In this document: piece after piece, positions 2,501 through 63,409 of the stretch
How positions within the stretch are numbered: the first letter of the stretch is position 1
Layout of the letters: each line of letters opens with the position of its first letter
DNA from: Siphonodentalium dalli
Lineage: Eukaryota; Mollusca; Scaphopoda; Gadilida; Siphonodentaliidae
Direction of reading: 5' to 3'
DNA length: 64,000 bases
Assembly: GCA_032622095.1 (NCBI GenBank)
Contig: CP136061.1
Coordinates: forward strand, 21,330,991-21,394,990
The notes under the pieces: model-generated
Told to the model about the DNA's origin: nothing
What the model saw: the letters and a program-made list of their open reading frames with translations, nothing else
The model's database searches: none
Made by a program: the position numbers and the translations under genes

Positions 2501-2720
2501 TTAACCCTTTGAGTGCCAGGGGCCGATCTAATCGGCCCTAAACCGACACAATAAGTCTGTTAAAGTATATAATAAAATATATTAAAATTGTAAAAAATTG
2601 TAGTAGTAATAAAAAATAAAAAAATAAAAAAAATGGTTAGGCCAACGCATATATAAGAGAATGCATTGGCACAGGGTATATGGGTTGATACAAAAATTGA
2701 CCTGGCACTCAAAGGGTTAA
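2501..2720 (+). mobile_element. Family B TTAA MITE (piggyBac-type ends)
   Basis: TTAACCCTTTGAGTGCCAGG at the left and the inverse GGCACTCAAAGGGTTAA at the right. TTAA flanks with CCC/GGG ends are diagnostic of piggyBac-like target duplications. The interior has GGGCCGATCTAATCGGCCC, the AATAAGTCTGTTAAA site and one degenerate half of the CCAATGCATTCTC hairpin. Non-autonomous; no transposase. Confidence 0.8.
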
Positions 2721-3204: not shown

Positions 3205-3455
3205 TTAACCCTTTCATGACGGGAGCAGCATTAAAGATCATGTGCCAGTGCATTCTCTTTTATATGCAACTATCCCACAGGGTGCCTCACATATATAAGA
3301 GAATGCACTGACTTATAAGGTCAAGGTAAATATTGTTAGGCCAGTGCATTATCTTATATATGCGAGGTTCCCTATGGGAGACTCTTATATTTGAGAGAAT
3401 GGATTGACACAGATTTTCGCAAATTTTCTGGAAGCTCCGGTCATGGAAGGGTTAA
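3205..3455 (+). mobile_element. Family C TTAA MITE
   Basis: TTAACCCTTTCATGAC...GTCATGGAAGGGTTAA inverted ends with a TTAA at each boundary. Two diverged copies of the ~70-bp hairpin module lie inside (3243-3312 and 3342-3411). Confidence 0.78.
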
Positions 3456-13200: not shown

Positions 13201-13528
13201 TGACTGATGACATCTTTCATTAATTAATCAATGAATAAATGGAATGTGGCTGGTTATCTTTGTCTTTTAGACCATTGTCGTTGTCCCTTGCTTCGGGGTG
13301 TGCTGCAATTATTGGGCGATTCCATCAGGTGACCTATACTTATCACTGGTCGTAGATAATAGGCGGACTGTCACATCGAGAGAAGGGAGATAATTAGGAA
13401 GCCCTCTGTAGTATTATCGGTGATTGCTGACTTGTCCCTGTCTTATTTGCGGAGCTCTTCCAATTTACTTTTAAGCTAGTGCTCACATACTTCTCCCAGA
13501 AATAGTTCGACGATCGATATGCGGCGAT

Positions 13529-13798
13529 TTAGCTCTTTCATGACTGGAGCTACTTGAATTTTTGCGAAAACCCTGTGCCAATGCATTCTCGTATATATGC
13601 GAGGCGCCCTATAAGAGAATGCATTGGCCTAACAATATTTACCTTGATCTTGTAAGCCAGTGTATTCTCTTATATATGCGAGGATCCTGATGGGAGACTC
13701 GCATATATAAGAGAAAACATTGTCACAGGGTTTTCGCAAAAAAAAAAATTCAAGTCTTTAATGCTGCACCAACACAGCTCCCTTCATGAAAGAGTTAA
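13529..13798 (+). mobile_element. Family C element, diverged
   Basis: CTCTTTCATGACTGGAGC / GCTCCCTTCATGAAAGAG inverted ends with TTAG and TTAA edges. Contains two copies of the hairpin module (around 13570-13629 and 13650-13722). Confidence 0.68.
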
Positions 13799-14550: not shown

Positions 14551-14943
14551 TTAACCCTTTACCCAACAGAACGGCCCTGTGCCAATGCATTCTCTTATAT
14601 ATAAGAGAATGCATTGGCTTAACACATTAAAAATTATAAAATTGTTAAAGAATGTAAGAAAAAATGTTAAAAAGTGTTAAAAAAAGAATTTTTTTAGGCC
14701 AATGCAAAAGAATTTTTTTAGGCCAATGCATTCTCTTATATATGCGAGGCGACCTATGGTCGACTCGCATATATAAGAGAATGCATTGGCACAGGGCATA
14801 ACTGTAACCATCACAATGTGGTCAATGAACCGGTTCCAATGATATCCATATTTGTATGGTTCTATTGAGACAGACCGAAGATATTTTAGGCTGTTGAAGC
14901 CTTATTTGGGCGTTTTTGGCCAGTTTGTTAGGTAAAGGGTTAA
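14551..14943 (-). mobile_element. Family A TTAA MITE with twin hairpins
   Basis: TTAACCCTTTACCCAAC and TTAGGTAAAGGGTTAA ends. The short arm is first, so it is in minus orientation relative to the copy at 18959. The left hairpin is shortened to a bare CTTATATATAAG turn; the right one is complete at about 14713-14795. The TTAA lies 4 bp from the adjacent P element end. Confidence 0.82.
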
Positions 14944-17873: not shown

Positions 17874-18041
17874 CAGTAATGCCCTAAATAATTGACTCCT
17901 TAACCACAGCAGAATTATGGGTAACTTTTCAGGATTTAGTCGGAAATATGGCTTGTTGCCATTCATCGGTTAGCTCTCAGTGTGAGCTTTCCGATGAATG
18001 GCAACAAGCCATATTTCCGTCTAATTCCTGAAAAGTTACCC
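17874..18041. mobile_element. Family P palindromic MITE, copy 5, truncated
   Basis: Intact left end CAGTAATGCCCTAAATAATT and full hairpin turn, but the right arm stops at AAAAGTTACCC, losing the last ~48 bp. Confidence 0.82.
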
Positions 18042-18208: not shown

Positions 18209-18420
18209 TTAACCCTTTCAGTGCCAAGTCCGATTTTTGTATCAACCCATATTTCCTTGATCATTTAAAAAATTTATTTATTATAATGTGACACATTGAT
18301 GGAAAGAGCTGTAAGAGCTCTTTCCATCAATGTATCGCATTATTATAATCAATAAATTTGGAAAATGATCCAGGAAATATGGGTTGATACAAAAATCGGA
18401 CTTGGCACTGAAAGGGTTAA
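18209..18420. mobile_element. Family B' palindromic TTAA MITE, copy 1
   Basis: TTAACCCTTTCAGTGCCAAG...CTTGGCACTGAAAGGGTTAA. The whole 212 bp folds as one hairpin with the turn at GAAAGAGCTGTAAGAGCTC. Right-end ATGGGTTGATACAAAAATCG is shared with family B. Confidence 0.86.
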
Positions 18421-18899: not shown

Positions 18900-19532
18900 T
18901 TAACCCTTTGAGTGCCAGGGGCCGATCTCATCGGCCCTAAACCTACAAAATAAGTCTGTTAACCCTTTACCCAACAAACCGGCCAAAACCGGCCAAATAA
19001 AGCTTCAACAGCCTAAAATATCTTCGGTCTGTCTCAATAAAACCATACAAATATGGATATCATTGGAACCGGCTCATTGACCACATTGTGATGGTTATAG
19101 TTATACCCTGGGCCAATGCATTCTCTTATATATGCGAGTCGACCATAGGTCGCCTCGCATATATAAGAGAATGCATTGGCCTAAAAAAAATCTTTTTTTT
19201 AACACTTTTTACCATTTTTTTCTTACATTCTTTGACAATTTTATAATTTTTAATGTGTTAAGCCAATGCATTCTCTTATATATGCGAGGCGACCTATGGT
19301 CGACTCGCATATATAAGAGAATGCATTGGCACAGGGCCCTTCTGTTGGGTAAAGGGTTAAAGAATATAAGAATAAATTATTAAAATTGTAAAAAATGTAA
19401 AAAAAAAAAAAAAAAAAAAAAAAAATTGTTAGGCCAATGCTTTCTCTTATATATGCGAGGCGACCTATGGTCGACTCGCATATATAAGAGAATGCATTGG
19501 CACAGGGTATATGGGTTGATACAAAAATCGAT
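18900..19532 (+). mobile_element. Family B MITE nested in E copy 3 (3' end truncated)
   Basis: Starts TTAACCCTTTGAGTGCCAGG and ends in ATGGGTTGATACAAAAATCG without the final GGCACTCAAAGGGTTAA. A T/A-homopolymer and hairpin (19433-19503) lie in its right half. It is itself split by family A at 18959-19360. Confidence 0.8.
18959..19360 (+). mobile_element. Family A TTAA MITE nested in the family B MITE
   Basis: TTAACCCTTTACCCAACAAA...GTTGGGTAAAGGGTTAA. Long left arm with GGCCAAAACCGGCC, then twin hairpins at 19107-19181 and 19261-19332. It sits in the B sequence AAGTCTG|TTAA|AGAATATAAG with the TTAA duplicated. Confidence 0.9.
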
Positions 19533-21365: not shown

Positions 21366-23010
21366 TATTTCAGCTGCTGGGCCATATCAGAGCGTTAATA
21401 GGGTGTTTATATATCAGAGTGTTATCAGGGTGTTTATATATCAGGGGATTATCAGGGAATTTATATATCAGGGGATTATCAGGGTGTTTATATATCAGGG
21501 GATTATCAGGGCATTTATATATCAGGGGATTATCAGGGAATTTATATATCAGGGGATTATCAGGGCATTTATATATCAGGGCATTATCTGTGGATTTATA
21601 TATCGGGGCATTATCAGGTGTTATCAGGGCATTAAATATCAGGGCATTATTACTGCATTACCAGGGCATTATCTGTGTTATCAGTGCGTTATCAGAACAT
21701 TGTCAGTGCGTTATCAGCGCGTTATCAAGACATTGTCCGTGCATTATCAGGGCGTTATCAAGACATTGTCAGTGCATTACCAGGGTGTTATCAGTGCATT
21801 ATCAAGACATTGTCAGTGCGTTATCAGCGCGTTATCAAGACATTGTCAGTGCATTACCAGGGCGTTATCAGTGCATTATCAAGACATTGTCAGTGCGTTA
21901 TCAGCGCGTTATCAAGACATTGTCAGTGCATTACCAGGGCGTTATCAGTGCGTTATCAAGACATTGTCAGGGTGTTATAAGTGCATTATCAGGGCAGTAA
22001 ACATCAGGACATTATCAGAGCATTATCAGTGCGTTATCAGGGTGTCATCAGGACATTATCAGAGCATTATCAGTGCGTTATCAGGGTGTTATCAGGACAT
22101 TATCAGAGCATTATCAGTGCGTTATCAGAGCATTATCAGAGCATTATCAGGGCATTATCAGAGCGTTATCAGTGCATTATCAGAGCATTATCAGGACATT
22201 ATCAGAGCATTATCAGGGCATTATCAGAGCGTTATCAGGGTGTCATCAGGACATTATCAGAGCATTATCAGTGCGTTATCAGGGTGTTATCAGGACATTA
22301 TCAGAGCATTATCAGTGCGTTATCAGGGTGTTATCAGGACATTATCAGAGCATTATCAGTGCGTTATCAGAGCATTATCAGAGCATTATCAGGGCATTAT
22401 CAGAGCGTTATCAGTGCATTATCAGAGCATTATCAGGACATTATCAGAGCATTATCAGGGCATTATCAGAGCGTTATCAGGGTGTCATCAGGACATTATC
22501 AGAGCATTATCAGTGCGTTATCAGGGTGTCATCAGGACATTATCAGAGCATTATCAGTGCGTTATCAGGGTGTTATCAGGACATTATCAGAGCATTATCA
22601 GTGCGTTATCAGAGCATTATCAGAGCATTATCAGGGCATTATCAGAGCGTTATCAGTGCATTATCAGAGCATTATCAGGACATTATCAGAGCATTATCAG
22701 GGCATTATCAGAGCGTTATCAGTGCATTATCAGAGCATTATCAGGACATTATCAGAGCATTATCAGGGTGTTATCAGGACATTATCAGGACATTATCAGA
22801 GCATTATCAGGACATTATCAGAGCATTATCAGGACATTATCAGAGCATTGTCAGGGTGTTATAAGAGCATTATCAGTGCGTTATCAGGGTGTTATCAGGA
22901 CATTATCAGAGCATTATCAGGACATTATCAGAGCATTATCAGGGTGTTATCAGGACATTATCAGGACATTATCAGTGCATTATCAGAGCGTTATCAGTGC
23001 ATTACCAGTT
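21366..23010 (+). repeat. 11-bp minisatellite (AGCATTATCAG), ~1.6 kb
   Basis: Units of the form (A/G/T)GC(A/G)TTATCAG repeat in register for over 1.6 kb. The first ~250 bp uses a 33-bp composite containing TTTATATATCAGGGGATT, and a middle part uses CATTGTCAGTGC variants. Because 11 is not a multiple of 3, three units form a 33-bp, 11-codon cycle. No stop occurs in any forward frame of the consensus, so long overlapping frames (up to 558 codons) appear. They lack codon bias and are not called genes. Confidence 0.95.
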
Positions 23011-23034
23011 TATTTGTAGAGGAAAAACCACTGA

Positions 23035-23108
23035 GTAACCCTTCCATGACTGGAGCTGAAATTTAATGCTGCACCAGCGCAGCGCAGCTCCTGTCATGAA
23101 AGTGTTAA
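23035..23108. mobile_element. Short family C MITE at the edge of the minisatellite
   Basis: GTAACCCTTCCATGACTGGAGC...GCTCCTGTCATGAAAGTGTTAA, 74 bp, with only the outer arms and the AATGCTGCACCAGCGC centre. Confidence 0.65.
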
Positions 23109-23147
23109 TTTATCTTGTAAATCTGGAAATTATTTCAATGCACATAG

Positions 23148-23204
23148 ACGTTATCAGTGCGTTATCAGGGCGTTATCTGGACGTTATCAGGGCGTTATCA
23201 GTGC
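23148..23204 (+). repeat. Second small block of the 11-bp minisatellite
   Basis: Five units of GCGTTATCAGT/GACGTTATCAG type, about 140 bp beyond the main array. Confidence 0.85.
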
Positions 23205-24265: not shown

Positions 24266-24590
24266 TTCTCACATTTTCATGAATGGAGCTTCCTGAATTT
24301 TTGGGAAAGCCCTGTGCCAATGCATTCTCTTATATATGCGAGTCGACCATAGGTCGCCTCGCATATATAAGAGAATGCATTGGCCTAACAAATTTTATAT
24401 TATTTTTTTGTAATTTAAAAAATGATAAGAAATTGTTAAAGAATGTAAGAAGTAATGATAAAAAATAAAATAAATTGTTAAAGAATGTAAGAAATAATTA
24501 TAAAGAATGTAAACAAAAATTATAAAGAATGAAAGAAAAAAATTATAAAAAATTATAAAATTGTTAAAGTATGTAAAATGGGCTATTGTT
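24266..24590 (+). mobile_element. Family C fragment with hairpin, 3' end missing
   Basis: TTTTCATGAATGGAGCTTCCTG then a full hairpin at 24315-24385 and an A-rich tail of repeated AAGAATGTAAGAAA words. No closing inverted end. Confidence 0.6.
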
Positions 24591-24599: not shown

Positions 24600-25249
24600 A
24601 CTTATTGGATTACAGAAATTTGAATTCTCCAGGCTGGTCCCTGAGATGTAGAAATTGTTTCTGTCCATTCATGTTTCTATCCATCTGTCTATCCATCTGT
24701 GTCCGTCCATCTGTCCCTAACAACTTCAGAGCTCTCTGTCTCAGTCATCACGGTTTGGATTTTACTGATCTTTGATACGTTAATGAACTTCCATGGGGGA
24801 AGGATAAACACATGGAACGGGTTCATTCACTTCTTGCCAGTTATAGTCATATATAATAGTGAGAAATGGAATCATGCTAAACTCCACATACCTTTATCTC
24901 ATGTTGAGTGATCTTTAGTATGCTCATGAGGCAGCATGAAAGAACGGTATCGACATGCAACAGGTTTTCACCATTTAAAATTGGTGGGGGGGGGGATATT
25001 TTTACCATTTAAAATGGGGGCGGAGGGTTCAGTTAGAGGTGGGGTGTGGGTTTGTTTTGGTACATGGAGATTTAATATAAAAGGTACGCTGTGTTGTGAA
25101 CATAATTAGAGAGAAATCGTGGTCAATGAATTTGATTTAAGTTTCAATTTGATGTTGATATTGGCATGATGATTCTTTGTCAATTTTATTGGAGGCAAAA
25201 TCCCTAATTTTCAGGACACCAGTATAAATTATGAATTTTTATATTTCAG
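24600..25249. other. Unique sequence before the first PMCA exon
   Basis: Contains CCATCTGT-rich simple sequence (24670-24720) and G-rich runs near 24985 and 25015. A pyrimidine-rich tract with ATATTTCAG gives the splice acceptor. Confidence 0.4.
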
Positions 25250-25492
25250 GTGAGGAGGTTGGGGACGATTCAGAGCAAGAGGCAGGATACATCGAGGGTG
25301 TAGCGATATTAGTAGCTGTTATAGTTGTAGTGTTAGTGACTGCTTTAAATGATTGGAAGAAAGAAAGGCAGTTTAGAGGTCTACAGAATAAAATTGAGCA
25401 TGAACACAAGTTTTCTGTTATTCGCGGTGGAGAAACCGATAATATTCCTGTTGGAGATATAGTTGTAGGAGATATTTGTCAAGTAAAATATG
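25250..25492 (+). CDS. ATP2B: PMCA-type Ca2+ ATPase, internal exon a (TM2 and start of actuator domain)
   Basis: Internal exon of a plasma-membrane calcium pump, which uses ATP to export Ca2+ from the cytosol. The 243-nt exon encodes about 81 residues. An acidic stretch ([12 protein letters not shown]) is followed by the hydrophobic helix beginning [11 protein letters not shown] and ending VTAL, which matches the second transmembrane helix of PMCAs. Then come [17 protein letters not shown] and [11 protein letters not shown], the conserved entry into the actuator domain. The acceptor is TATTTCAG before G25250 and the donor is GTGAGT at 25493. Both boundaries split a Gly codon in phase 1. The open frame before 25250 is intronic, so the in-frame ATG at 25231 is not a start. 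The preceding exon (N-terminus and TM1) is not in the window. Family assignment rests on recognised PMCA motifs, which differ from SERCA and secretory-pathway pumps. Strong family call; the paralogue is unresolved. Confidence 0.93.
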
Positions 25493-25617
25493 GTGAGTAT
25501 CCTTCTAAATTTATTTGTTATATCTTAGGCCTGATAAAAAATAGTGATGTTTCTGGTAACCGCCTGCCCATAATCCAGACCTCTGCCCCTATTAATTTTA
25601 TTAATAATTAACCCTTT

Positions 25618-25964
25618 ACCCAACAAACCGGCCAAAAACGGCCAAATAAAGCTGCAACAGCCTAAATTATCTTGGGTTTGTCTCAATAAAACCATACAAA
25701 TATGGATATCATTGGAACCGGCTCATTGACCACATTGTGATGGTTACAGTTATGCCCTGTGCCAATGCATTCTCTTATATATGCGAGTCGACCATAGGTC
25801 GCCTCGCATATATAAGAGAATACATTGGCCTAAAAAACATTCTTGAACAATTTTTAATGTGTTAAGCCAATGCATTCTCTTATATATGCGAGGCGACCTA
25901 TGGTCGACTCGCATATATAAGAGAATGCATTGGCACAGGGCCGTTCTGTTGGGTAAAGGGTTAA
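25618..25964 (+). mobile_element. Family A TTAA MITE in PMCA intron
   Basis: TTAACCCTTTACCCAACAAA...GTTGGGTAAAGGGTTAA with twin hairpins at 25759-25829 and 25865-25936. It begins 126 bp after the exon a donor. A shorter spacer between the hairpins distinguishes this copy. Confidence 0.88.
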
Positions 25965-26338: not shown

Positions 26339-27720
26339 TTTTGTGCCTAGTTAGCTCAACTTTACTTTGTAAAGTTTGAGCTATTGCCATGGCTTTGTCG
26401 TCCGTCGTCCGTGTGTGCGTGTGTACGTAAGGCGTCAACAATGCAGTCTACAGGTCGTACCTTTGGTCGGATCATTATGAAATTTGTCATAGCTGTTGAC
26501 ATCAACATTTAGACCAGAATGATTAATTTTGGGGTCATTCGGTAAAAAAACATGGCCGCCAGTGGCCATCTTGCATTTCAAAATTCAATCCATTAGCACG
26601 GGCTACAGGGCGTACTGTTTGTCTGATCGTCATGAAATTTGTCATGGATGTTAATATTGACATGTAGATGGGAACAAGTAATTTTGGAGTCATTTGGCCC
26701 AAAAACATGGCCGCCAGCAGCCATCTTGGATTTTACTCTTTGTATGACTAAATTCTTTAGCACGGGCTACAGGTCGTACTTTTAGTCTGATCATCATAAA
26801 ATTTGTCAAGAATGTTAATAATGACATGTAGATGGGAAACGAGTCATTTTGGGGTCATTCGGCCAAAAAACATGGCCGCCAGCAGGCATCTTTGATTTCA
26901 CTCTTTGTATGACTAAATCCTTTAGCACGGGCTACAGGTCGTACCTTTAGTCCGATCATCATAAAATTTGTCATGGCTGTTGAAATTGAAATGTAGATGG
27001 GAACAAGTCATTTTGGGGTCATTCGGACAAAAAACATGGGCGCCAGCGACCATCTTGGATTTCAAAATTCAATCCATTAGCACGGGCCACAGGTCGTACT
27101 GTTTGTCTGATCATCATGAAATTTGTCATGGATGTTAATATTGACATGTAGATGGGAACGAGTAATTTTGGGGTCATTCGGCCAAAAAACATGGCGGCCA
27201 GCAGCCATCTTGGATTTTACTCTTTGTATGACTAAATCCTTTAGCACGGGCTACAGGTCGTGCTTTTAGTCTGATCATCATAAAATTTGTCATGGATGTT
27301 AATATTGACATGTAGATGGGAACGAGTAATTTTGGGGTCATTTGGCCCAAAAACATGGCCGCCAGCAGCCATCTTGGATTTTACTCTTTGTATGACTAAA
27401 TCCTTTAGCACGGGCTACAGGTCGTACCTTTAGTCTGATCATCATAAAATTTGTCATGAATGTTAATAATGACATGTAGATGGGAACGAGTCATTTTGGG
27501 GTCATTCGGCCAAAAAACATGGCCGCCAGCAGCCATCTTGGATTTTACTCTTTGTATGACTAAATTCTTTAGCATGGGCTACAGGTCGTACCTTTAGTCT
27601 GATCGTCATAAACATTTTCATGGATGTTAACGATGACATGTAGATGGGAACGACTCATTTTGGGGTCATTCGGCCGAAAACATGGCCGCCAGCAGCCATC
27701 TTGGATTTTACTTTTCTCTT
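26339..27720 (+). repeat. GTCCGTCGTCCG-type repeat with ~164-bp tandem units
   Basis: Opens with TAGCTCAACTTTACTTTGTA and a GTCGTCCGTCGTCCG stretch. About eight units follow, each with CATGGCCGCCAGCAGCCATC (26551, 26706, 26871, 27035, 27190, 27354, 27518, 27681; periods 155-165 bp). Unit phrases include CTACAGGTCGTACCTTTAG and GACATGTAGATGGGAAC. Similar blocks are common in bivalve genomes. No stable reading frame. Confidence 0.82.
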
Positions 27721-28570: not shown

Positions 28571-29009
28571 TTAACCCTTTCAGTGCCAGGGGCCGATTTC
28601 ATCGGCCCTAATTTACGGTCTGTAAAATCGACCCTAAAAAAAATTAAAAATTAAATTTTGTTTTTTTTTTTTTTTAAAGATATTTCTTCTTTTTTTTCTG
28701 TTGAAATTTTTTTTGGGTATGCTTAAGCATGCTATAGCGAATTTAAAAACAAACTGGATAACACCTTAGGGGCATGTTATAACTCAAAACTATCACCAAG
28801 TATTCATAGTAATAATTTTGATGCCCATGAAAAATGTGAGATTCCCTGGCACTAAACCTACAAAATAAGTCTGTTAAAAAATATAAGAAAAAAGGTAAAA
28901 AATTGTAAAAAATAAGAACAAATGATGTAAAATTGTTAGGCCAATGCATTCTCTTATATAAGGGTATATGGGTTGATACAAAAATCGGACCTGGCACTCA
29001 AAGGGTTAA
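28571..29009 (+). mobile_element. Family B MITE, long form
   Basis: TTAACCCTTTCAGTGCCAGG...GGCACTCAAAGGGTTAA. Compared with the copy at 2501 it has an extra ~190-bp internal block containing GCTTAAGCATGCTATAGCG, also present at 62951-63409. The hairpin is reduced to its left half at 28940. Confidence 0.83.
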
Positions 29010-31158: not shown

Positions 31159-31557
31159 TTAACCCTTTACCCAACAGAAGGGCCCTGTGCCAATGCATTC
31201 TCTTATATATGCGAGTCGACCATAGGTCGCCTCGCATATATAAGAGAATGCATTGGCTTAACACATTAAAAATTATAAAATTGTTAAAGAATGTAAGAAA
31301 AAATGGTAAAAAGTGTTAAAACAAGATTTTTTTTAGGCCAATGCATTCTCTTATATATGCGAGGCGACCTATGGTCGACTCGCATATATAAGAGAATGCA
31401 TTGGCACAGGGCTAACTGTAACTATCACAATGTGGTCAAGGAGCCGGTTCCAATTATATCCATATTTGTATGGTTCTATTGAGACAGCCCGAAGATATTT
31501 TAGGCTGTTGAAGCTTTATTTGGCCGGTTTTGGCCGGTTTGTTGGGTAAAGGGTTAA
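31159..31557 (-). mobile_element. Family A TTAA MITE in PMCA intron
   Basis: TTAACCCTTTACCCAACAGA...GTTGGGTAAAGGGTTAA, minus orientation. Hairpins at 31189-31259 and 31337-31410; the long arm ends with GGCCGGTTTTGGCCGG. Confidence 0.88.
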
Positions 31558-32335
31558 ATAGCATCTTGTTACAGTCTCAGTGTTGTGAGGTACTGGTACT
31601 TGAATCCACACCTATTGACGTGAGGCCTATGTATTCAATGCAATCCCATCCATTGAATAAATATTATTGTATACCTCTAGTGGAATACAAGCCAGAACTA
31701 TTCTTGTTGATCAATTAAGGCAACAGCCATGGATTGAATTTATCTGACACAACAGTGTTGAATAAATACAGAAGACAACTTGCATCATAATCTTGAAACT
31801 TTTATCGAACTTGTTGTGGTCGGCTCATAGTTACGTTATCCTTGCACCATCTGTAACTCATTAGATAAAAGATTCTCGATTAAGATGCGCATTGTGTTTT
31901 GTCCACAGTGAATTTATTCTTCACAAAGCGAGTTTTAATAGTATCTTGTTACAATCTTCAGTAGTGAGGTTCTGTGCTGTGAATATAATATTCTTTATTT
32001 ATTAAACCTTTTTGTTGATTTGACTTAGGGTCCTGCGATTTATCAAATTAAATCGAATTTTGATTTGTGGTTCAGTCTCCGAATCATATTAGTACAGTTT
32101 TGATTTTGTGTCCATAAAGTTTTGATTCCGCAGTATATGAATTCCACATTCTCGTTGATTTATCATCCTCCCAAGCTTCAAATTTATTATGAAAATAAAA
32201 TACCATAATTAATATGATCAAAGAATTTCATCACAGATTGGAATCATCTGCCAATTTCCCCTATCAAAGTGCACATATAACCTTTAATTCGATGTGAAAC
32301 ACAGTCATATATTCGAAATCACTTGTGATGACCTA

Positions 32336-32561
32336 CCATAATGCTCTAAGTAATCGACTCCATAACCACAGCAGAATTATGGGTAACTTTTCAGGATTTA
32401 GTCGGAAATATGGCTTGTTGCCATTCATTGGAAAGCTCTCCCCGAGAGCTTTCCCCGAGAGCTTTCCAATGAATGGCAACAAGCCATATTTCCGACTAAA
32501 TCCTGAAAAGTTACTCATAATTCTGCTGTGGTTATGGAGTTGATTACTTAAGGCATTACTG
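32336..32561. mobile_element. Family P palindromic MITE, copy 6
   Basis: Left end degraded (CCATAATGCTCTAAG), right GGCATTACTG. The turn has a duplicated GAGAGCTTTCC, making this the longest copy (226 bp). Confidence 0.85.
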
Positions 32562-32639
32562 TATCATAAAGTCAATGCACTATACATGATCACACAATAT
32601 GAAGCTCTCTGTCAAATGAGTTCTTAAATCAAATTGCGC

Positions 32640-35030: not shown

Positions 35031-35267
35031 TTTAAATATTTAGGTGTGGATGTAAATCCTTGTTTTGAACACAGCTGTAGGAGTAACACAATACATTGGT
35101 ATCACTGGGCAAATGTTTGTGCCATCATTAATTATCTTCATGTCAACAGGTCTCCCAGACATTCTTGTTGCTGATAGTGGCTTTATGAATGGAATTTTAT
35201 CCCATGTTTATCTCAGATACAAATTGTCTGTTTGAAAGATAAAGTTTATTTTTACTATTAATATTAA

Positions 35268-35400
35268 CCATTTCATGACCAGAGTTGTGCTGGTGAGACC
35301 CTGTGCTTGTGCATTCTCTTATATATGCTCCCATGGGAAGCCTCCCATATAAAAGAGAATGCACTGGCTTTCCAGGTCATGGTAATTTTGTTAAGGCAAT
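35268..35400 (+). mobile_element. Family C fragment
   Basis: TTAACCATTTCATGACCAGAG followed by one diverged hairpin (35312-35370); the right end is missing. Confidence 0.55.
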
Positions 35401-36670: not shown

Positions 36671-36778
36671 AGACACAAATGCCACATTTATATCTTGATA
36701 ATCGGCAATTATAAAAAGACCCAACCAGAGTCTAACATGATAATGAACCAAGCTCCAATAATAAACTGAAGTTATATA

Positions 36779-36925
36779 CAGTAATGCTCTAATTAATCGA
36801 CTTCTTAACCACAGGAGAGTGAGAGCTTTCCGATGAATGGCAACAAGCCATATTTCCGACTAAATCCTGAAAAGTTACCCATAATTCTCCTGTGGTTAAG
36901 AAGTCGATTAATTAGAGCATTACTG
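36779..36925. mobile_element. Family P palindromic MITE, copy 7, one arm mostly deleted
   Basis: CAGTAATGCTCTAATTAATC...TTAGAGCATTACTG with TA flanks. The left arm jumps from CCACAGGAG to GTGAGAGC; the right arm is complete. Confidence 0.85.
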
Positions 36926-37949
36926 TATGTAGATCATGTAACTGTACAGATCTATGGTTTTTGCTGAGCAATTTTTTAGCCAAAGCAAATTTCTTCTAGT
37001 TAACAGTGTTGATTGTCGTGTACAAACCATGTCTCAAAGTGGTGGTCTGCCGGCCAGGAACACTCAAGAATATGGATTTGATTACACACATTGGTCGATT
37101 GGAATACACCCATTGCTATAGAAATCAATAGATTTTTGTCTCAACAAACATACAAAGCAAGCGGTCAGCTCGTTTTAGCCTAGCCCTCTTCATATGGGAG
37201 ACGATTTGTCATCAAAATGAGTTGCCGCACAAGACAGTTAGTGTAGAGTAAAACAGAGTAATTGGAACTGTTTTTTTTAACAAAAACAAATGAGAAAACA
37301 AGACAAATGACATTTTCAGTCGTAAAGCTAAGTTTGATGGATAACAGATTGGTAAAGGATGCTAAGAGCTATGTGAGGCTTTAGATAATGGATATGAAGT
37401 GTATGAGTTGCCTAGCTCCGAGCACAAAATTATTAGTATGGATTATTGATTCTGCAACGATCTGGATCAGAGAGCCTTTCCATCCAGTCAACTTTTTTTT
37501 TTCAATCATGCAAACAAAGGGCTTTGTTTTCCTTCAGTTAATGCAGGGAATCGCATGCACTAAATACTCGTAGGGGAAACCCCAATTTAATTTAGATCAA
37601 TATTCATGGACTTTTTCCTCATCGGAACCATTCGCTACTAACCAGATTTGATTTGCGAAAGAAATTATCTTGTTGCTGCTGGAAATTGCCATGGATCAGT
37701 GTTACATTTGTGGAAATGAGAAAAATGTCTATGTGGAGGAACATCCTCACCAATTAATCACGGTACTCTAAATGAATTTATTGATCCGATATGTCCAAAT
37801 TGGCCCCACAATCACTTGAAAGTAATATCACTCATACAACCAATGTCTCATCTGGTTGCTTCAGGAAACGGCCAATATTTACACAGCATTCCCGTTTCTG
37901 ATTCCGACTGGGAGAAAAAAATTCACTGATTGCTCACACTCAAGTCTGA

Positions 37950-38302: not shown

Positions 38303-39035
38303 ACTGACATTTGCAGAATGAGGTCCAAAGAGGGTGAATTTAGTTACAATATCCCGCACAGTGGGCTAGATCACCAAATTCACCTTTGGGTACCTCATTC
38401 TGCTCATCTTCTGGGAAGTTTCTATATATAGTCTCAAATTAACCCTTTACCCGCAAACCGGCCAAAAAACGGCCAAATAAAGCTGCAACAGCCTAAATTA
38501 TCTTGGGTCTGTCTCAATAAAACCATACAAATATGGATATCATTGGAACCGGCTCATTGACCACATTGTGATGGTTACAGTTATGCCCTGTGCCAATGCA
38601 TTCTCTTATATATGCGAGTCGAGCATAGGTCGCCTCGCATATATAAGAGAATGCATTGGCCTAAAAAAAATCTTTTTAAACACTTTTTACCATTTTTTCT
38701 TACATTCTTTAACAATTTTATAATTTTTAATGTGTCAAGCCAATGCATTCTCTTACATATGCGAGGCGACCTATGGTCGACTCGCATATATAAGAGAATG
38801 CATTGGCACAGGGCCGTTCTGTTGGGTAAAGGGTTAACATTGTTTTTAGTTACTTTTTACCTTCTTTTCAGTTTCTATTTACCCTAATGCAAATTCATAA
38901 TCAAGGTGAATTAATGGGTGAACATTACCAACTTCAACTGGGGAACTTCAATCTGATCCTAGGTCTCCCGTAGAAGAGGCCTAAGTTGAAAGAGGTTCCT
39001 ACAGGGGTGAATTTGGTGATGATAGCCCACTTTGT
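38303..39035. mobile_element. Family E element, copy 8, split by a family A insertion
   Basis: Left hairpin 38315-38401; body ...GTCTCAAA interrupted by TTAA at 38439; resumes TTAACATTGTTTTTAGTTAC at 38834. Degraded right end near 39000. The exon b acceptor is about 140 bp further on. Confidence 0.75.
38439..38837 (+). mobile_element. Family A TTAA MITE nested in an E element
   Basis: TTAACCCTTTACCCGCAAAC...GTTGGGTAAAGGGTTAA with hairpins at 38589-38661 and 38740-38809. The TTAA duplicates a single TTAA present in uninterrupted E copies. Confidence 0.9.
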
Positions 39036-39865: not shown

Positions 39866-40033
39866 TTAACCCTTCCATGACTGGATATTCCTGAAATTTT
39901 ACGAAAACCCTTTGCCAATGCATTCTCTTATATATGCGAGTCTCCCATAGGGAGCCTCGCGTATATAAGAGAATGCACTGGGGCAGGATATTTTAATGCT
40001 GCATAAGGGCAGTTCCCGTCATGAAAGGGTTAA
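39866..40033 (+). mobile_element. Family C TTAA MITE
   Basis: TTAACCCTTCCATGACTGGA...CCCGTCATGAAAGGGTTAA with one hairpin (39916-39982, loop TCTCCCATAGGGAGC). About 570 bp downstream of exon b. Confidence 0.82.
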
Positions 40034-41818: not shown

Positions 41819-42044
41819 GTACATTCAGGTTCCAGAGTGAATATTTTAAGGCAGACACTTCCCCCCCCCCCCCCCCCCCCCACACACTTAGACAGATGAT
41901 TTTATCCATCTCTAAGATATTTAGCATCACAATATAGAGTCTAACACTCGTATTTATATCACTTGATCAATTTATATCATTTGTAGGATAACAGAATATT
42001 ACTATTAGTGCTCCGTTCATTCAGTATTTCCTTGCACCCTCATA

Positions 42045-42204
42045 CAGTAATGCCCTAAGTAATCGACTCCATAACCACAGCAGAATTATGGGTAACTTTT
42101 CAGGATTTAGTCGGAAATATAGCGTGTTGCCTTTCATCGGAAAGCTCTCCCCGACTAAATCCTGAAAAGTTACCCATAATTCTGCTGTGGTTATGGAGTC
42201 GATT
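42045..42204. mobile_element. Family P palindromic MITE, copy 8, fused to an E element
   Basis: CAGTAATGCCCTAAGTAATC at the left. The hairpin turn is deleted on one side (CTCCCCGACTAAATCC), and the right end stops at GGAGTCGATT, directly joined to family E sequence. Confidence 0.84.
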
Positions 42205-42403: not shown

Positions 42404-43285
42404 TTGTAAAGATTTGCTCTCATCAGACATAGTTAATTATCTCACTAATTATCGACATGTTTATGCACTCAAGGTCTCCCCGGCATTCAATATAACAAAC
42501 CAACCTGTCTGCTCAACAATGGATGTTTTATCCACCCATTTGAGGCTGTCACTCAATATATTATATCTCCGTGCTCTAATTTCCATTCATTAAAAATTGA
42601 TATTTCGGACTCTGCTGTTAGGTAAATTTATTCTACTTTGCAAATTCTGCCGTATTGTCAGCGTCATGTTTTATATCTAAGGTCTTTTTTAGCAGTTCTA
42701 ATATCTTTAACTCGATTTGTTCCAATAGGATATTCTACATTGGTTTACAGTTTTGAAAATCATCAGTAGTGGTCTGAAACTTACAACTATCATGTACCAA
42801 CATTCATTCTCAAAGCAATGAGAATAATGAGCTTACGCCTGAATCTTCAACATGGATGCCACCCCCCCCCCCCCCCCCCCAATTAATGAAAGCTAACAAC
42901 ATTATTATTGTGTTCCACCCTGAAAGATTGTGTTTTTTATTTGAATTTTAACTTAACAACAAGCATTGTGTTTGCCCCACCTTTATTATATGAGATAGAA
43001 CCAACTAACTGCATGTTGGAAAAGCTTCCATGCGTCTAAAATCAGTTATATTTACAGTTGGCAAAACATTGATTGAAATTGATTATAGTTGTCAAGCTTT
43101 CATCACATTGAGAGTCAACTATTATGCTCTTTCTAAAAATAAGTAGAACACAATAAACCTTGGTACATTTACAGCAACACATATTAATATATATCTGTTA
43201 TTCAAGCTTCCTCTTTTCAATGGTATGGAACATAGCTAGAACAAGCTAAATATAATTTGAGGTCTCCAACATTATCGGGCCCTTA

Positions 43286-43490
43286 ACCCTGTTTATACTG
43301 AATGGATTCTCCCATCGGTTATAATAAGTATACATTGGAATGGTCCATTATTCATTTAATGGATGTTCAGGAAATTTAAGCAGACGACAGAGAGTCAAAA
43401 ATACAATACAAGTGCAGTAGGGTTCATATTGATTGGTGGGAAATGTTCATACAAGTTCAACAAATGAACTATATGCAGAAGGGTTAATGC
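43286..43490. repeat. Family F repeat
   Basis: TTAACCCTGTTTATACTGAA, GGATTCTCCCATCGGTTATA and AAGCAGACGACAGAGA to CAGAAGGGTTAA. TTAA-bounded ends fit the same class as A-C. Confidence 0.6.
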
Positions 43491-43808: not shown

Positions 43809-44397
43809 TGATTTAAAAAAAAATAACTGATCATCCTTGTGTGTGACAGCCAATGAAACATATTGGGAGATAAAATATCCTTAACCTAGGAGTCTGTACT
43901 TACTCTCTTGGAGAGATTAACTCACAGCTTGATAATCAAGGTCTTTTGTATTCTCCACAAACATTAATAGCTCAAGCCTGCATCTGGCATATACAGTTCT
44001 CAACATGATGCCAATGGATTGAATTAGAATTCCTTTGCACCGAGTTGATTGGATTTTAATAAAAAATACTGTGTGTTGTTTTTCTAGCACTTCTAAGAAA
44101 ATAAATCAGCTTGGCTCTTGCACTTTTGAGTGGGTTGGAATTTCTCTTATAAAGGATTGTGTTGTGATTGTCAATCAATTTTAGATGGGTTGTTATAGCG
44201 TCTCCGCTAGATCTCGAGGGCGAATTCTGTAATAAGATTGAAGTGCCGAATTATCGATTCAGTTTGCTGCCTTGTATAAGTTGTGATTAATCATGCATCG
44301 CAATTTATTTTTTTTATTTTTAAAGACATTAATATCTGCTTATTTCATCAAAAATTGTTATTTTAAGAATCGGCTACTACAGCATCATTAACCCTTT

Positions 44398-44602
44398 CAG
44401 TGCCAAGTACGATTTTTGTATCAACCCATATTTCCTTGATTATTTTTCAAATTTATTGATTATAATAATGTGATACATTGATGGAAAGAGCTCTTAGAGC
44501 TCTTTCCATCAATGTATCACATTATTATAATCAATAAATTTGAAAAATGATCAAGGAAATATGGGTTGATACAAAAATCGGACTTGGCACTGAAAGGGTT
44601 AA
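44398..44602. mobile_element. Family B' palindromic TTAA MITE, copy 2
   Basis: TTAACCCTTTCAGTGCCAAG...CTTGGCACTGAAAGGGTTAA. Near-perfect arms around GAAAGAGCTCTTAGAGCTC; closely matches 18209-18420. Confidence 0.88.
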
Positions 44603-44895
44603 ACTATCATTGGCAAAATAATCACCAAGATCGGCTGTGCCCTTTGTAAATCAAGACATCGGAACTGCAGCAAAATTTAAACAAAACGGGGTCCCTGACT
44701 CATCCCGAAACAAACCACTGATAAATAAACGAGAGTGATTTCTCCAACAAGAGTCAATCTATTAATTTATATGGAAGAAGGATGTTACGTGTTGGTTATT
44801 TTGATACAAAATTTATTGAAATACCTGTGTTGAGCTGCAGCAGTGTTTCATATTACTTTAAGCTGTTTCAACTTGCATATTAGGAAAACTACTTA

Positions 44896-45108
44896 CAGTA
44901 ATGCCCTAAATTATCGACTCCTTAACCACGGCAGAATTATGGGTAACTTTTCAGGATTTAGTCGGAAATATGGCTTGTTGCCATTCATCGGAAAGCTCTT
45001 ACTGAGAGCTTTCCGATAAATGAGAACAAGCCATATTTCCGACTAAATCCTGAAAAATTACCCATAATTCTGCTGTGGTTAAAGAGTTGATTATTTAGGG
45101 CATTACTG
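44896..45108. mobile_element. Family P palindromic MITE, copy 9
   Basis: CAGTAATGCCCTAAATTATC...TTAGGGCATTACTG with TA flanks; arms complete. Confidence 0.87.
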
Positions 45109-45223
45109 TATCTGTGTATGTTAGTCTGAAATCATGGTAAGGTTTGGAACTTTCAGAAGCTTTTCAGATCAGGAAAAGTCATTAAAAATGTCACATTTTA
45201 TTTATTTATTTATTTATCATATC

Positions 45224-45623
45224 TTAACCCTTTACCCAACAAACCGGCCAAAAACGCCCAAATAAAGCTGCAACAGCCTAAAATATCTTCGGTCTGTCTC
45301 AATAGAACCATACAAATATGGATATCATTGGAACCGGCTCCTTGACCACATTGTGATAGTTACAGTTATGCCCTGTGCCAATGCATTCTCTTATATATGC
45401 GAGTCGACCATAGGTCGCCTCGCATATATAAGAGAATGCATTGGCCTAAAACAATTCTTTTTTTAACACTTTTTACCATTTTTTCTTACATTCTTTAACA
45501 ATTTTATAATTTTTAATGTGTTATGCCAATGCATTCTCTTATATATGCGAGGCGACCTATGGTCGACTCGCATATATAAGAGAATGCATTGGCACAGGGC
45601 CCTTCTGTTGGGTAAAGGGTTAA
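45224..45623 (+). mobile_element. Family A TTAA MITE
   Basis: TTAACCCTTTACCCAACAAA...GTTGGGTAAAGGGTTAA, twin hairpins at 45377-45447 and 45533-45596. Preceded by a (TTTA)n stretch. Confidence 0.9.
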
Positions 45624-47649: not shown

Positions 47650-47751
47650 TATCATGAAGTTGCTGAGCACCCCTTCAAATGATTAATAGACCATTCCAAT
47701 GTATACTTTTATAACTGCGTGGGGAAATCCATTTAATATAGAAAGGGTTAA
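47650..47751 (-). repeat. Family F fragment
   Basis: AATAGACCATTCCAATGTAT and AATATAGAAAGGGTTAAAGG, as at 2310-2395. Confidence 0.6.
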
Positions 47752-49306: not shown

Positions 49307-49770
49307 TGTGACCCGCCATATCAAATCCAGTTGGAAGTCGGGATTTTTTTACCCTGTGCCAATGCATTCTCTTATATATGCGAGTCGACCATAGGTCGCC
49401 TCGCATATATAAGAGAATGCATTGGCCTAACAATTTTTTACAATTTTAATAATTATTTCTTGTATTCTTCAACAATTTTATAATTTCACCCATACAGAGC
49501 CCCAGACAAACATGAGCAGACGACACTCTTCTATAATATGCTTCTATATACATTGTGTGGGGCTCCCTGCAGGGTAATGGATGTTTTTTATTTTATGTCC
49601 TAAAAATTGTCAGAAACATTTATTTAAAACAAATGATAAAAAATTGTTAGGCCAATGCATTCTCTTATATATGCGAGGCGACCTATGGTCGACTCGCATA
49701 TATAAGAGAATGCATTGGCACAGGGTAAAAAAATCCCGACTTCCGACTGGATTTGATATGGCGGGTCACA
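49307..49770. mobile_element. Family D element: different arms, same hairpins
   Basis: TGTGACCCGCCATATCAAAT...GGGATTTTTTTACCCTGTG and its inverse at the right give ~50-bp TIRs unrelated to A-C. Inside each is a standard hairpin (49358-49428 and 49651-49722). Confidence 0.85.
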
Positions 49771-50473: not shown

Positions 50474-50863
50474 TTAACCCTTTACCCAACAAACCGGCCA
50501 AAACCGGCCAAATAAAGCTTCAACAGCCTAAAATATCTTCGGTCTGTCTCAATAGAACCATACAAATATGGATATCATTCGAATCGGCTCCTTGACCACA
50601 TTGTGATAGTTACAGTTATGCCCTGTGCCGATGCATTCTCTTATATATGCGAGTCGACCATAGGTCGCCTCGCATATATAAGAGAATGCATTGGCCTAAA
50701 AAAAATCTTTTTTTTACCATTTTTTCTTACATTCTTTAACAATTTTATAATTTTTAATGTGTTAAGCCAATGCATTCTCTTATATATGCGAGGCGACCTA
50801 TGGTCGACTCGCATATATAAGAGAATGCATTGGCACAGGGCCTTCTGTTGGGTAAAGGGTTAA
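50474..50863 (+). mobile_element. Family A TTAA MITE
   Basis: TTAACCCTTTACCCAACAAA...GTTGGGTAAAGGGTTAA with hairpins at 50625-50696 and 50766-50836; shorter inter-hairpin spacer. Confidence 0.9.
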
Positions 50864-51726
50864 AAAACAAAATCGTTATTTTTGTTCATAACACCTGCTA
50901 CTATTTTTCAGAATATATTATTTACTTAGTATTGTAATAACATATACATTTATATCACATTTTATACCACATATAAGCACATATATATATTTTGTCTACA
51001 ACATACAAGGCTTTAGTATTTTTAACTAATTATTAGCAATAAATATCAACATATAGCCATTGCTTTGTATTTTATGCTGTCGTTAATTAATGGCATGAAC
51101 TGCACACAAAAAAGTATAATGCTTGGTATTAAAGTGATGTGAAACACTACGTTAGGGTGGCCAAATAGAAATAATCTTGTTCAAAGTAAAAAAAAATTTA
51201 TGAATATTAATCCAAATTGACAACAAACAGACAGTCTTATATATTAATTAAATGCAATGACTTTCGGTGGCGAAATCATTTGTGTTAGTTTATCGCCCAT
51301 AGTTGCGTTCTGAATCGAGATGTAAATATTGACAATTGAGCGTAGTTCAGACGATGTTTTTTATGGAGTGGTATGGTCGATTTCTTTTAAATTTTCCGTC
51401 ATGTTAGTAGAATGCTACATTCCCCAAGTTGGCATTGTGTCTGAGTACTAAGTTATCAATTCACGCACCAGAATAAGTCCATAATATGTCTTTAAATTAT
51501 ACAAAATTGATAAGTTTAAAAAATAAATAGTTAATAAATCATTTAAATAGCATATTTGGCAGTAAATTAGTTTCCTTGCTTTACACATTATTACGCTAGT
51601 CATTGTGACACCTTTGTCATTTCCACCCTATAATGAAGAAACTACCCCCAAGCTCCAATGAATGAACGAATGAGTGTTCATCAAGATTAGTAAGATCTAA
51701 TGACTACTCACCCCTGGGTACACCCT

Positions 51727-52289
51727 TAACCCTTTCTTTACTGAATGGATTCTCCCACTCAGTTATAAAAGTATACATAGGAATGGTCTATAAATCACCT
51801 GGAGGGGTTTTCAAGAAACATAAGCAGACGACAAATAATACAAGTGCAGAATGAGTCCTATTTATATGTATTTGAGGGAAATTATTTGTTGAACTTATTA
51901 TATGAACATTTTCTTAGAGATTACTACTCATCAATCATGGGGGGATTTTATTCCGGGCACGTATGCCGGGGTGGGTGGTCGATGGGACCAAAAAAATAAA
52001 ATTTCCACAACTGAATTTTTTTTTTGGTCTGTTTTTGCAATGAATTTGGCTCAAAACACCTTAGAATAACAGGGGGGGGATTTTTCCGGGCACGTATGCC
52101 GGGTGGGTGGGTGGTCGATGTGACCAACAAACAACTCACAGGGTGTCAAAAAATGATCGGAAAAAACTGCCGAAAACGGAAAAAAAATTGAACGCAAGGG
52201 TAGATGGGGTCCCAAGGAAAAAATCAGCATACGTGCCTGAAAATATTTTCAGACCCCCCCCCCTTGCATCAATGAGTATTTAGTTTAGA
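51727..52289. repeat. Family F element, possibly full length, with a duplicated GGGCACGTATGCC block
   Basis: TTAACCCTTTCTTTACTGAA...TTAGTTTAGAAAGGGT. The middle carries two copies of a block with CCGGGCACGTATGCCGGG and GTGGGTGGTCGATG (51953 and 52087), G/C runs and AAAAAAAT tracts that may be a second repeat inserted into it. Confidence 0.55.
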
Positions 52290-54808: not shown

Positions 54809-55490
54809 TGAAATAGGGCAGAATCAGTGGAATTATTCAAAATCAAAGTTCAATGTTCATGATTTCTCAAGGGGACGATGTTATGTAATCATTGAAAGAA
54901 TATAGATGAATTATCATAGAATATCGTAAAATAAACACAACAAAGTTTTAATAGAATTTTGAAGGTGGTCACGCAGGTCAAAATGTTATCGATTAATGTA
55001 GATCAGTCATTTTAACCGATATGTAAAAGTATGTTCAGTGATTGGAAACAACCTTCAATTCAATAGATGTACATGTTTGTACTTGAGTACATCATATTGG
55101 TTTTCTGAGTGAACAGACAAACTTTAGGCCATGCAAGGTCAATTTCCTGTTTCTCAGGCCCACGCGCATGGTCCCGATAACCCGCAACCTTTTTACTTGC
55201 GTTTGATATATTGAAAACAAATTTAATCGGTATGAAACATGTGATATTTTGCATCTGCAAACTCAATAAACATTGCGTCAATGAAACTTTATTGGGTGAT
55301 TATTGATGAAATAAATCTCATTGAATCTATCAACTAATTTTTTATAGACATATGTTCGGCAAATATTGGCCACTGGCAACCAAAATTAAACTCAGATCTA
55401 GCCAAAGCAGAGGTTGAATGCTTCATTGGCGTGTGCACCAGAAATAAAAACTTTAATTAAAAACTACGTGCTCACATGATTTTCAAAATA

Positions 55491-55680
55491 CAGTAAAACC
55501 CTAAATAATCGACTCCTTAACCACAGCAGAATTATGGGTAATTTTTCAGGATTTAGTTGGAAATATGGCTTGTTGCCATTCATCGGAAAGAATGGCAACA
55601 AACCATATTTCCGAATAAATCCTCAACAATTACCCATAATTCTGCTGTGGTTAAAGAGTCGATTATTTAGAGCATTACTG
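55491..55680. mobile_element. Family P palindromic MITE, copy 10
   Basis: CAGTAAAACCCTAAATAATC...TTAGAGCATTACTG with TA flanks; the turn is shortened at GGAAAGAATGGC. Confidence 0.85.
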
Positions 55681-55889
55681 TATATGGCCTGAGAAATGGG
55701 GAAATTGACTTTGCGTGGCCTCAGGCTGATTTAGCATCTGATCGAATTCAGAAGTTTTATTTTTACATGTAAATTTCCACCCTCTCCCTGTCATTTATAA
55801 ACTATGATATACTCACTCGTCTTTAGCTTATTGTTTTGCAGACAGTGGTAACAGAGTTAAATGTCATGGTATGGTGTAATATTAACTTA

Positions 55890-56054
55890 TTAACCCTTTT
55901 AGTGCCAGGGGGCGATCTCATCGGCCCTAATTTATGGTCTGTAGAGTGCCAATGCATTCTCTTATATATAGGTCGCCTCGCACATATAAGAGAATGCATT
56001 GGCACAGGGTATATGGGTCGATACAAAAATCGGACCTGGCACTCAAAGGGTTAA
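55890..56054 (+). mobile_element. Family B MITE, short form
   Basis: TTAACCCTTTTAGTGCCAGG...GGCACTCAAAGGGTTAA, with a single hairpin (55945-56010) whose loop is partly deleted. Confidence 0.82.
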
Positions 56055-61621: not shown

Positions 61622-61800
61622 TTAACCCTTTTGTGACTGGAGATTTTTGCATATACATTGTATAAGAGAATTAAATAAGATTGGCCTAAAAGTATTTACG
61701 TTGATCTTGTAAGCTATGGGAGACTCGCATATATAAGAGAATGCACTGGCACATGATCTTTAATGCTGCACCAGCATGTCTCCTGTCATGAAAGGGTTAC
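61622..61800 (+). mobile_element. Family C element
   Basis: TTAACCCTTTTGTGACTGGA...CTCCTGTCATGAAAGGGTTA, with a collapsed first hairpin and a half second one. Confidence 0.68.
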
Positions 61801-62084: not shown

Positions 62085-62251
62085 TTAATCCTTTCATGAT
62101 TGGAGCAGCACTGGTGCCGCATTAAAGATCCTGTGCCCGTGCATTCTCTTATATATGCAGGTCACTCATAGGGAGCCTCACATATCTAAGAGAATGCATT
62201 GGCACAGGGTTTTTGCAAAATTTCAGGAAGCTCCAGTCATGGAAGGGTTAA
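62085..62251 (+). mobile_element. Family C TTAA MITE
   Basis: TTAATCCTTTCATGATTGGA...CTCCAGTCATGGAAGGGTTAA with one hairpin (62138-62206, loop CACTCATAGGGAG). Confidence 0.8.
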
Positions 62252-62290: not shown

Positions 62291-62747
62291 TTAACCCTTT
62301 ACCCAACAGAACGGCCCTGTGCCAATGCATTCTCTTATATATGCGAGTCGACCATAGGTCGCCTCGCATATATAAGAGAATGCATTGGCTTAACACATAT
62401 TAAAAATGATAAAATTGTCAAAGAATGTAGAAAAATATTATATTATTAAAAAAATGTAAGAAAAAATTATAAAATTGTTAATTGAAAAATGGTAAAAAGT
62501 GTTAAAAAAAGATTTTTTTAGGCCAATGCATTCTCTTATATATGCGAGGCGACCTATGGTCGACTCGCATATATAAGAGAATGCATTGGCACAGGTCATA
62601 ACTCAGTGTAACCATCACAATGTGGTCAATGAACCGGTTCCAATGATATCCATATTTGTATGGTGTTATTGAGACAGACCGAAGATATTTTAGGCTGTTG
62701 AAGCTTTATTTGGCCGTTTTTGGCCGTTTTGTTGGGTAAAGGGTTAA
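62291..62747 (-). mobile_element. Family A TTAA MITE
   Basis: TTAACCCTTTACCCAACAGA...GTTGGGTAAAGGGTTAA, minus orientation, hairpins at 62320-62392 and 62521-62596. The inter-hairpin spacer is expanded by AAGAATGTA-type words. Only 39 bp separate it from the preceding family C element. Confidence 0.88.
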
Positions 62748-62950: not shown

Positions 62951-63409
62951 TTAACCCTTTCAGTGCCAGGGGCCGATCTCATCGGCCCTAATTTACAGTC
63001 TGTAAAATCGGCCCTAAAATTTTTTTTAAAATAGATTTTTTTTTTTTTGGGTCGAATTTATTTTTGGTATGCTTAAGCATGCTATAGCGAATTTAAAAAC
63101 AAACTGGATAAAACATTAGGGGCATGTTATAACTCAAAACTATCACCAAGTATTCATAGTAATAATTTTGATGCCAATGAAAAACGTAAGGTTCCCTGGC
63201 ACTAAACCTACAAAATAAGTCTGTTAAAGAATATAAGAAAAAATTATCAAAATTGTAAAAAATAATAACAAATGATGAAAATTTGTTAGGCCAATGCATT
63301 CTCTTATATATGCGAGGCGACCTATGGTCGACTTGTATATATAAGAAAATGCATTGGCACAGGGTATATGGGTTGATACAAAAATCGGACTTGGCACTCA
63401 AAGGGTTAA
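62951..63409 (+). mobile_element. Family B MITE, long form with hairpin
   Basis: TTAACCCTTTCAGTGCCAGG...GGCACTCAAAGGGTTAA. Same extra block as 28571-29009, plus a full hairpin (63289-63363). Contains the intact AAGTCTGTTAAAGAATATAA site. Confidence 0.87.

Follow-up and report, generated by a model that had tools for sequence, protein, structure and literature searches.

MITEs are classed by their ends, and the element at 49307..49770 raises the question of how one and the same palindrome comes to lie inside elements whose ends differ. This element, D, was pointed out in an earlier note on the 64-kb window (the whole stretch of DNA analysed here), which reported a hairpin occurring about 30 times within four transposon families, A to D, and took their ends to be unrelated.

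A 69-bp palindrome at 32 sites

The reported abundance of the hairpin was borne out. In a BLAST search of the 64-kb window with the 69-bp hairpin, accepting E values up to 1e-3, all matches fell at 32 sites, of which 16 belong to A, 5 to B, 9 to C and 2 to D. The hairpin is full-length or nearly so at 26 of these sites (one copy is without 5 bases) and centre-deleted or truncated at the other six (13577, 14581, 55948, 2646, 28940 and 61714). The hairpin arm, CCAATGCATTCTCTTATA, had 61 matches in the window at up to 3 mismatches, as compared with 0.16 expected; an arm match at 47696 lies outside the 32 sites found by BLAST.

The consensus hairpin is a palindrome of 69 bp with a 3-base loop and one conserved internal mismatch (T28 versus C42). 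Folded as single-stranded DNA it reaches -35.4 kcal/mol (z = -15.6), and none of 200 shuffled sequences folded as well. The exact consensus is present in 14/26 full-length hairpins, and identical hairpins were found across A, the C-type copy at 24275 and D. Two hairpin types can be told apart by their loop stems, CGACC-ATA-GGTCG in A, B and D and CTCCC-ATA-GGGAG in C, with 6 of the 7 full-length hairpins of family C being variants around the latter sequence, one of them exact. The C-type consensus was built from six rows, the same six that were later called nearer to the C-type, and its position 5 is a 3:3 tie, so that pair 5-65 is weak.

In the centre-deleted hairpins at 13577-13628 (family C) and 55948-56003 (family B), a loop half in the opposite orientation lies beside the outer box and a similar TAT junction occurs at the end; these two copies have the appearance of palindromes that were inverted either prior to the deletion or in the course of it. 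A search of the window against Rfam at gathering scores gave no matches, and the hairpin therefore reaches no catalogued RNA family. Exact searches with 22 bases of the hairpin arm returned no matches in viral contigs and none in prokaryote genome contigs, and six element sequences were not found as text in the papers searched, a weak negative since sequences are rarely printed in text.

Families A, B and C have tips and target in common

Family A is represented by eight copies of 357-457 bp, all of which (8/8) have TTAACCCTTTACC as one tip and GGGTAAAGGGTTAA as the opposite one. Five lie on the plus strand (18959..19360, 25608..25964, 38439..38837, 45224..45623 and 50474..50863) and three on the minus strand (31159..31557, 62291..62747 and 14551..14943, the last with one hairpin devoid of its centre). 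A has unequal arms, the two hairpins of the copy at 18959 beginning 153 and 30 bp from the tips.

Family B has tips of the form TTAACCCTTT[G/C/T]AGTGCC and one hairpin near the right end. Its five loci, all on the plus strand, comprise a full-length copy with one hairpin (62951..63409), two copies in which the hairpin is truncated (2501..2720 and 28571..29009), a short copy that has lost the hairpin centre (55890..56054) and a copy split by an A element into a left part (18900..18958) and a right part (19361..19530). The right part holds one hairpin and is missing the right tip, the match to the B arm stopping after 30 bp.

Family C, with the typical tip TTAACCCTT[T/C]CATGAC, carries one or two hairpins. 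Two C-type hairpins are present at 3205..3455, two hairpins with the left one centre-deleted at 13528..13798, one C-type hairpin each at 39866..40033 and 62085..62251, and a truncated hairpin at 61622..61800, these five being listed without strand. A left part with one C-type hairpin lies at 35264..35368 (plus strand), and a seventh locus, at 24275..24384 (plus strand), combines a C-type left outer arm with a hairpin of the A/B/D type.

Common to A, B and C are the tip TTAACCCTTT and the target TTAA. TTAA was found at both ends in 8/8 copies of A, at 4/5 loci of B (the fifth being the split copy, without its right tip) and at 3/7 loci of C, the other four being degenerate or truncated. Inside the TTAA, the tip reads CCCTTT in 16/16 A tips and 9/9 B tips; at the three C loci with TTAA on both sides it reads CCCTT[T/C] in 5/6 tips and TCCTTT in one. 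In addition, the A copy at 18959 sits inside the B copy exactly at a TTAA, and the flanks, once joined, match three other B copies at that place, which is direct evidence of TTAA-specific insertion. Tips and target together mark A, B and C as piggyBac-like (TTAA) MITEs of the non-autonomous kind. Since they share both features, their ends are not unrelated to one another, and the idea of transfer between unrelated families is weakened by three of the four end types falling into one superfamily. Kolobok elements, which have TTAA duplications and 5’-RR tips (PMC9587614, in its available text), were ruled out, as the tips of A and B begin with CCC.

No transposase was found among the 10 ORFs scanned (280 ORFs of at least 55 aa lie outside one tandem array). 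There was one match among the scanned ORFs, to the Pfam E1-E2 ATPase family and below its cut-off. In a comparison with solved structures, the ORF at 25231-25611 proved similar to plasma membrane calcium ATPases (best E 4.2e-29), a match that points to an animal as the source of the DNA.

The window holds other repeats as well. A further TTAA family without the hairpin, which we call E, carries GAATGGATTCTCCCA and AGCAGACGACA and was delimited by eye at ~2280-2388, 20975-21057, 43283-43487, 47650-47751 and 51726-51840. A separate family of long foldbacks, likewise without the hairpin and with arms of up to 108 bp that are 89-98% identical to the arm at 3468, occupies ten sites (3468-3684, 8480-8665, 14333-14548, 15299-15513, 17872-18041, 32334-32563, 36777-36927, 42043-42204, 44894-45110 and 55489-55682). 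An inverted repeat at 11736-12602, whose 121-bp arms are 99% complementary and 625 bp apart, may be another young transposon. Tandem repeats occur at 21400-23201, where ATTATCAGGGC-like units with periods of 27, 33, 44 and 77 give rise to long open but repetitive reading frames, and at 26448-27712, where a 164-bp unit is present in about 8 copies.

Element D has outer arms of its own

Element D (464 bp, listed without strand) consists of 140-bp inverted arms that are 98% complementary and separated by 184 bp, with one 69-bp hairpin per arm, tips TGTGACCCGCC and no TTAA. On its left side, on the plus strand, an outer arm of 45 bp (49307..49351) is followed by the box CCCTGTG (49352..49358), the last G of which is position 1 of the hairpin, by the hairpin itself (49358..49426) and by an inner flank resembling the interior of B (49433..49486). 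The right side, on the minus strand, comprises an inner flank that is also B-interior-like (49602..49650), the second hairpin (49651..49719) and the outer arm (49726..49770). Both hairpins are identical to the A/B/D consensus.

At E 1e-3, the outer arm of D has no other match in the window. It was compared 16 times with the ends of A, B, B’ (foldbacks with B arms, described below) and C, in no case with a significant result (lowest P = 0.064), and 37/40 shuffles attained its highest score elsewhere in the window. Homology of this arm to ends of A, B, B’ or C, such as that of AAGTCGGGATTTTT with AAGTCCGATTTTT of B’, was considered and rejected as not significant. Unrelated ends, as claimed for the families at large, are thus seen in D only, and D, being a single copy in the 64-kb window, does not amount to a family there.

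Neither a TTAA duplication nor a CC[C/T]T tip was found at D, which is flanked by gtaatt and tttggt and has the tip TGTGACCC; 19 bases of the tip had no exact matches in viral contigs. If the tip is taken to be GTGACC, D is flanked by the 4-bp repeat ATTT, and direct repeats of at least 4 bp arose by chance in 580 of 20000 random pairs (2.9%) under the same scan. D may belong to a family of another superfamily, or it may be an inverted duplication of one half of a B element together with local sequence. We regard as possible, albeit doubtful, that D represents a genuine family from a different transposon superfamily and acquired the palindromic core by capture: the long and almost perfectly complementary inverted arms, the absence of TTAA and the potential ATTT duplication speak for it, as against the single copy in the window, the frequency at which such direct repeats occur by chance and the lack of a transposase in the ten ORFs scanned.

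The centre of D contains AAACATGAGCAGACGACA, equal at 17/18 positions to the family E copy at 51816. Compared with the TTAA family carrying AGCAGACGACA (near 21040, 43372 and 51816), the D centre gave a best BLAST E of 0.15 and a local score reached by 38/40 shuffles, and the likeness is a hint.

The shared unit extends beyond the hairpin

The hairpin is accompanied by further shared sequence. On its outer side, the box CCCTGTG occurs within 2 mismatches at 31/32 hairpins, the exception being a truncated copy, as compared with 1.3% expected for a random 7-mer (equal-base estimate). On its inner side, CCTAACA, CCTAAAA or CTTAACA is present exactly at 22/32 copies. The orientation of the hairpin is constant as well: T28 and C42 are both present in 25/26 full-length hairpins (the 26th has a gap there), and the T is on the outer side in all 23 of the full-length hairpins that have one outer side, a count that drops the copies at 39914 and 62135 from the 25, each of these lying between two outer arms.

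Similarity continues into the interiors, which are AT-rich, so that the effect sizes given here should be read with care. The left interior of D resembles the interiors of B in 4/4 copies (P ≤ 0.002) and the long side of A (0/500 shuffles as high). For the right interior of D, no shuffle out of 500 scored as high against three of the four B copies, the fourth giving P = 0.222, and there was no match to the A interior (P = 0.128 and 0.858). Comparison with the C-type copy at 24316 gave P = 0.064 for the left and 0.008 for the right flank of D, and the two flanks resemble each other (P = 0.004 and 0.026). The long-side interior of A, in a comparison that used one A copy (31159), resembles B with at most 1/500 shuffles as high in three of four copies and 44/500 in the fourth.

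The unit in common is therefore larger than the hairpin that had been thought to be shared alone: it is a core that includes the CCCTGTG box, plus an AT-rich interior in A and B. Families with different ends thus have a conserved internal region in common, as do the coral CMITEs discussed below.

These observations also bear on the proposal that the hairpin itself is a mobile or conversion-prone module. All 32 hairpins adjoin a recognisable arm of A, B, C or D (read by eye), none lies outside an element in the window, and at none of the 32 sites does a solitary hairpin have a target duplication of its own. An independent mobile hairpin would account for its presence in several element families; the absence of solo copies, the constancy of orientation and outer box and the lack of any direct repeat around the core (by eye) refute it within this window, and we give it hardly any credence.

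Cores and ends are combined in more than one way

The outer arm at 24275 is of the C type (88% identity over 42 bp), and the hairpin that follows it, at 24316, is identical to the A/B/D consensus; the left TTAA and the right end of this mosaic were not seen. The outer arm of B is found next to two kinds of core, the one with the hairpin and, in two B’ elements (18209..18420 and 44388..44602, listed without strand), a different foldback. Each B’ element is flanked on either side by a B outer arm (92-94% identity to the B arm over 49-50 bp) and has no hairpin. At E 1e-3 the B’ foldback core matches only itself and its sister copy in the window. Outer arms and cores have therefore been joined in more than one combination and, as B has one hairpin and B’ has none, TTAA elements do without the hairpin.

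The suggestion that the sharing goes beyond ordinary descent is upheld in part by the mosaic and by the two cores of B and B’, with the qualification that the unit exchanged is the core with its box. These combinations support the view that core and ends do not have a single common history. The alternative is simple descent, in which one ancestral element gave rise to all lineages and the ends diverged without recombination. It would accommodate the TTAACCCTTT tips of A, B and C, the interior sequence common to A, B and D and the position of the box, which is the same in all families. However, simple descent is already strained by the C-type arm joined to the other hairpin type at 24275 and by the B arm with two different cores, and it has to reconcile hairpins that are identical across A, C-24275 and D with a D outer arm that is not significantly similar to the other ends. 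We consider it very unlikely.

Paired changes and the maintenance of the palindrome

The two hairpin types differ by compensated changes at pairs 30-40 and 31-39 and, more weakly, at pair 5-65. Covariation was tested on 13 distinct hairpin rows against 500 shuffles. The share of paired cells (91.9% vs 89.0 in shuffles), the number of cells changed on both sides of a pair (12 vs 5.8) and the covariation score (0.105 vs 0.064) were each higher than in any shuffle (0/500 as high). There was no excess of pairs changed on both sides (4 vs 3.2; 142/500 shuffles as high) or of further pair types (12 vs 12.5; 433/500), and the two clear covarying pairs are adjacent and may thus be one event. That six differences should coincide with three pairs by chance was put at 5.5e-5, but this figure presupposes the C-type consensus and independent sites and was not relied on.

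Variation among the eight A copies was compared between hairpins and outer arms, omitting 14 arm columns where the tip stretch of copy 38439 is misaligned. Variants present in at least two copies were found in 0/138 hairpin columns as compared with 10/169 outer-arm columns (P = 0.0025), and private variants in 4/138 and 11/169, respectively (P = 0.19, not significant). Variants shared among copies reflect the evolution of the source elements, and these eight copies suggest that the palindrome may be constrained in active A elements and free to change afterwards.

A palindrome without function is the competing interpretation: its symmetry would stem from mutation bias, with hairpin or template-switch repair using one arm as the template for the other, its uniformity from conversion between copies, and the swaps of ends would be by-products. 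Damage to the palindrome is indeed frequent (6/32 centre-deleted or truncated), and paired changes can arise by arm copying without selection. Correction of one arm by the other, however, would erase the T28-C42 mismatch, which is kept in 25/25 of the full-length hairpins with both letters and in both hairpin types. Private changes, moreover, are not significantly rarer in the hairpins than in the outer arms, so that ongoing conversion in place is not evident. We hold a functionless palindrome to be rather unlikely, and a transposase-related, putatively transposase-bound site would be the most likely reason for its retention.

Discussion

Our analysis revealed a common core, TTAA tips in A to C, one nested TTAA insertion, mosaic combinations of arms and cores, and paired changes in the stem. 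The explanation towards which we lean, with some reserve, is that A, B and C are piggyBac-like MITEs that were re-ended around a common core, with the palindrome retained as a subterminal recognition site and D derived from a B core. The core would consist of the CCCTGTG box, the near-perfect palindrome of 69 bp and, where A and B are concerned, the AT-rich interior. It would have gained different outer arms (24 to 147 bp, excluding the box), the simplest route being recombination or template switching between elements. Recombinants with a working TTAACCCTTT tip would then have amplified, and the 69-bp palindrome, containing a putative recognition site to which transposase may bind, would have been kept through each re-ending. 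D would be a derived element in which the core on either side is B-like and the outer sequence presumably newly acquired. Precedents for re-ending by template switching or by exchange between copies are provided by Galileo and Pack-TIR elements, as described in the available parts of the reports (PMC3573991, PMC8277862).

Under a different account, the palindromic core works as a cis-acting enhancer of transposition that is portable: different families, including D with tips of another superfamily, would have gained it by recombination, and it would be under selection irrespective of the family in which it resides. We deem this unlikely.

In the available text of the sources, the closest known case is that of the coral CMITE families I-VI of Acropora, piggyBac-like MITEs that differ in their tips (mostly CCCTTT) and are better conserved internally than at their ends; according to the authors, the internal region may help transposition (PMC2872659). 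The elements described here are like CMITEs in the TTAA duplication, the CCCTTT tips and the occurrence of families with different ends around a conserved interior (PMC2872659). The phenomenon of different tips around a better-conserved interior, the main surprise at this locus, is thus already published. CMITEs, however, are ~100 bp long with a 75-bp internal region, as compared with 165-464 bp in the window, where the conserved part is a 69-bp palindrome that occurs twice, inverted, in A, D and some C, and where one element (D) is without TTAA tips (PMC2872659). Searched for in the window, the published 60-bp coral CMITE consensus gave a best E of 0.29, which is not significant.

A palindrome inside a piggyBac-like end also has a biochemical counterpart. 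As far as the available text of the reports goes, the internal repeat of piggyBac is a 19-bp palindrome that lies farther from one tip than from the other and to which the C-terminal domains of the transposase bind as a dimer; with the native piggyBac enzyme in cells, both excision and integration were obtained only with the asymmetric pair of short ends (PMC7351741, PMC11707139). The ends of piggyBac and piggyBat are asymmetric, and the hairpin spacing in A is likewise unequal; the hairpin here, at 69 bp, is far longer than the 19-bp palindrome of piggyBac, and the piggyBat palindrome is on the left end only (PMC7351741, PMC11707139).

Two more distant systems offer partial parallels, again in the accessible portions of their descriptions. 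Galileo of Drosophila mojavensis includes chimeras in which the ends stem from other subfamilies than the interior, as explained by exchange between copies, but belongs to the P-element superfamily and has long repetitive ends and 7-bp duplications (PMC3573991). ATon of Aedes aegypti includes a family with a putative subterminal stem-loop at both ends, and its families are grouped by short tip similarity; it differs in its AT target and in an internal sequence of its own in each family (PMC3422177).

What sets the present elements apart from CMITEs, as these are described, is the palindromic nature of the core, its doubled inverted arrangement, the paired changes and D. If true, a core that outlives its ends, undergoes compensated changes in its pairs and reappears behind different tips would mean that internal cis elements, and not only the tips, decide which MITEs amplify. 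The elements would then offer a natural test set for internal palindromes driving transposition, a possibility that was raised for CMITEs and is suggested by the available accounts of piggyBac biochemistry.
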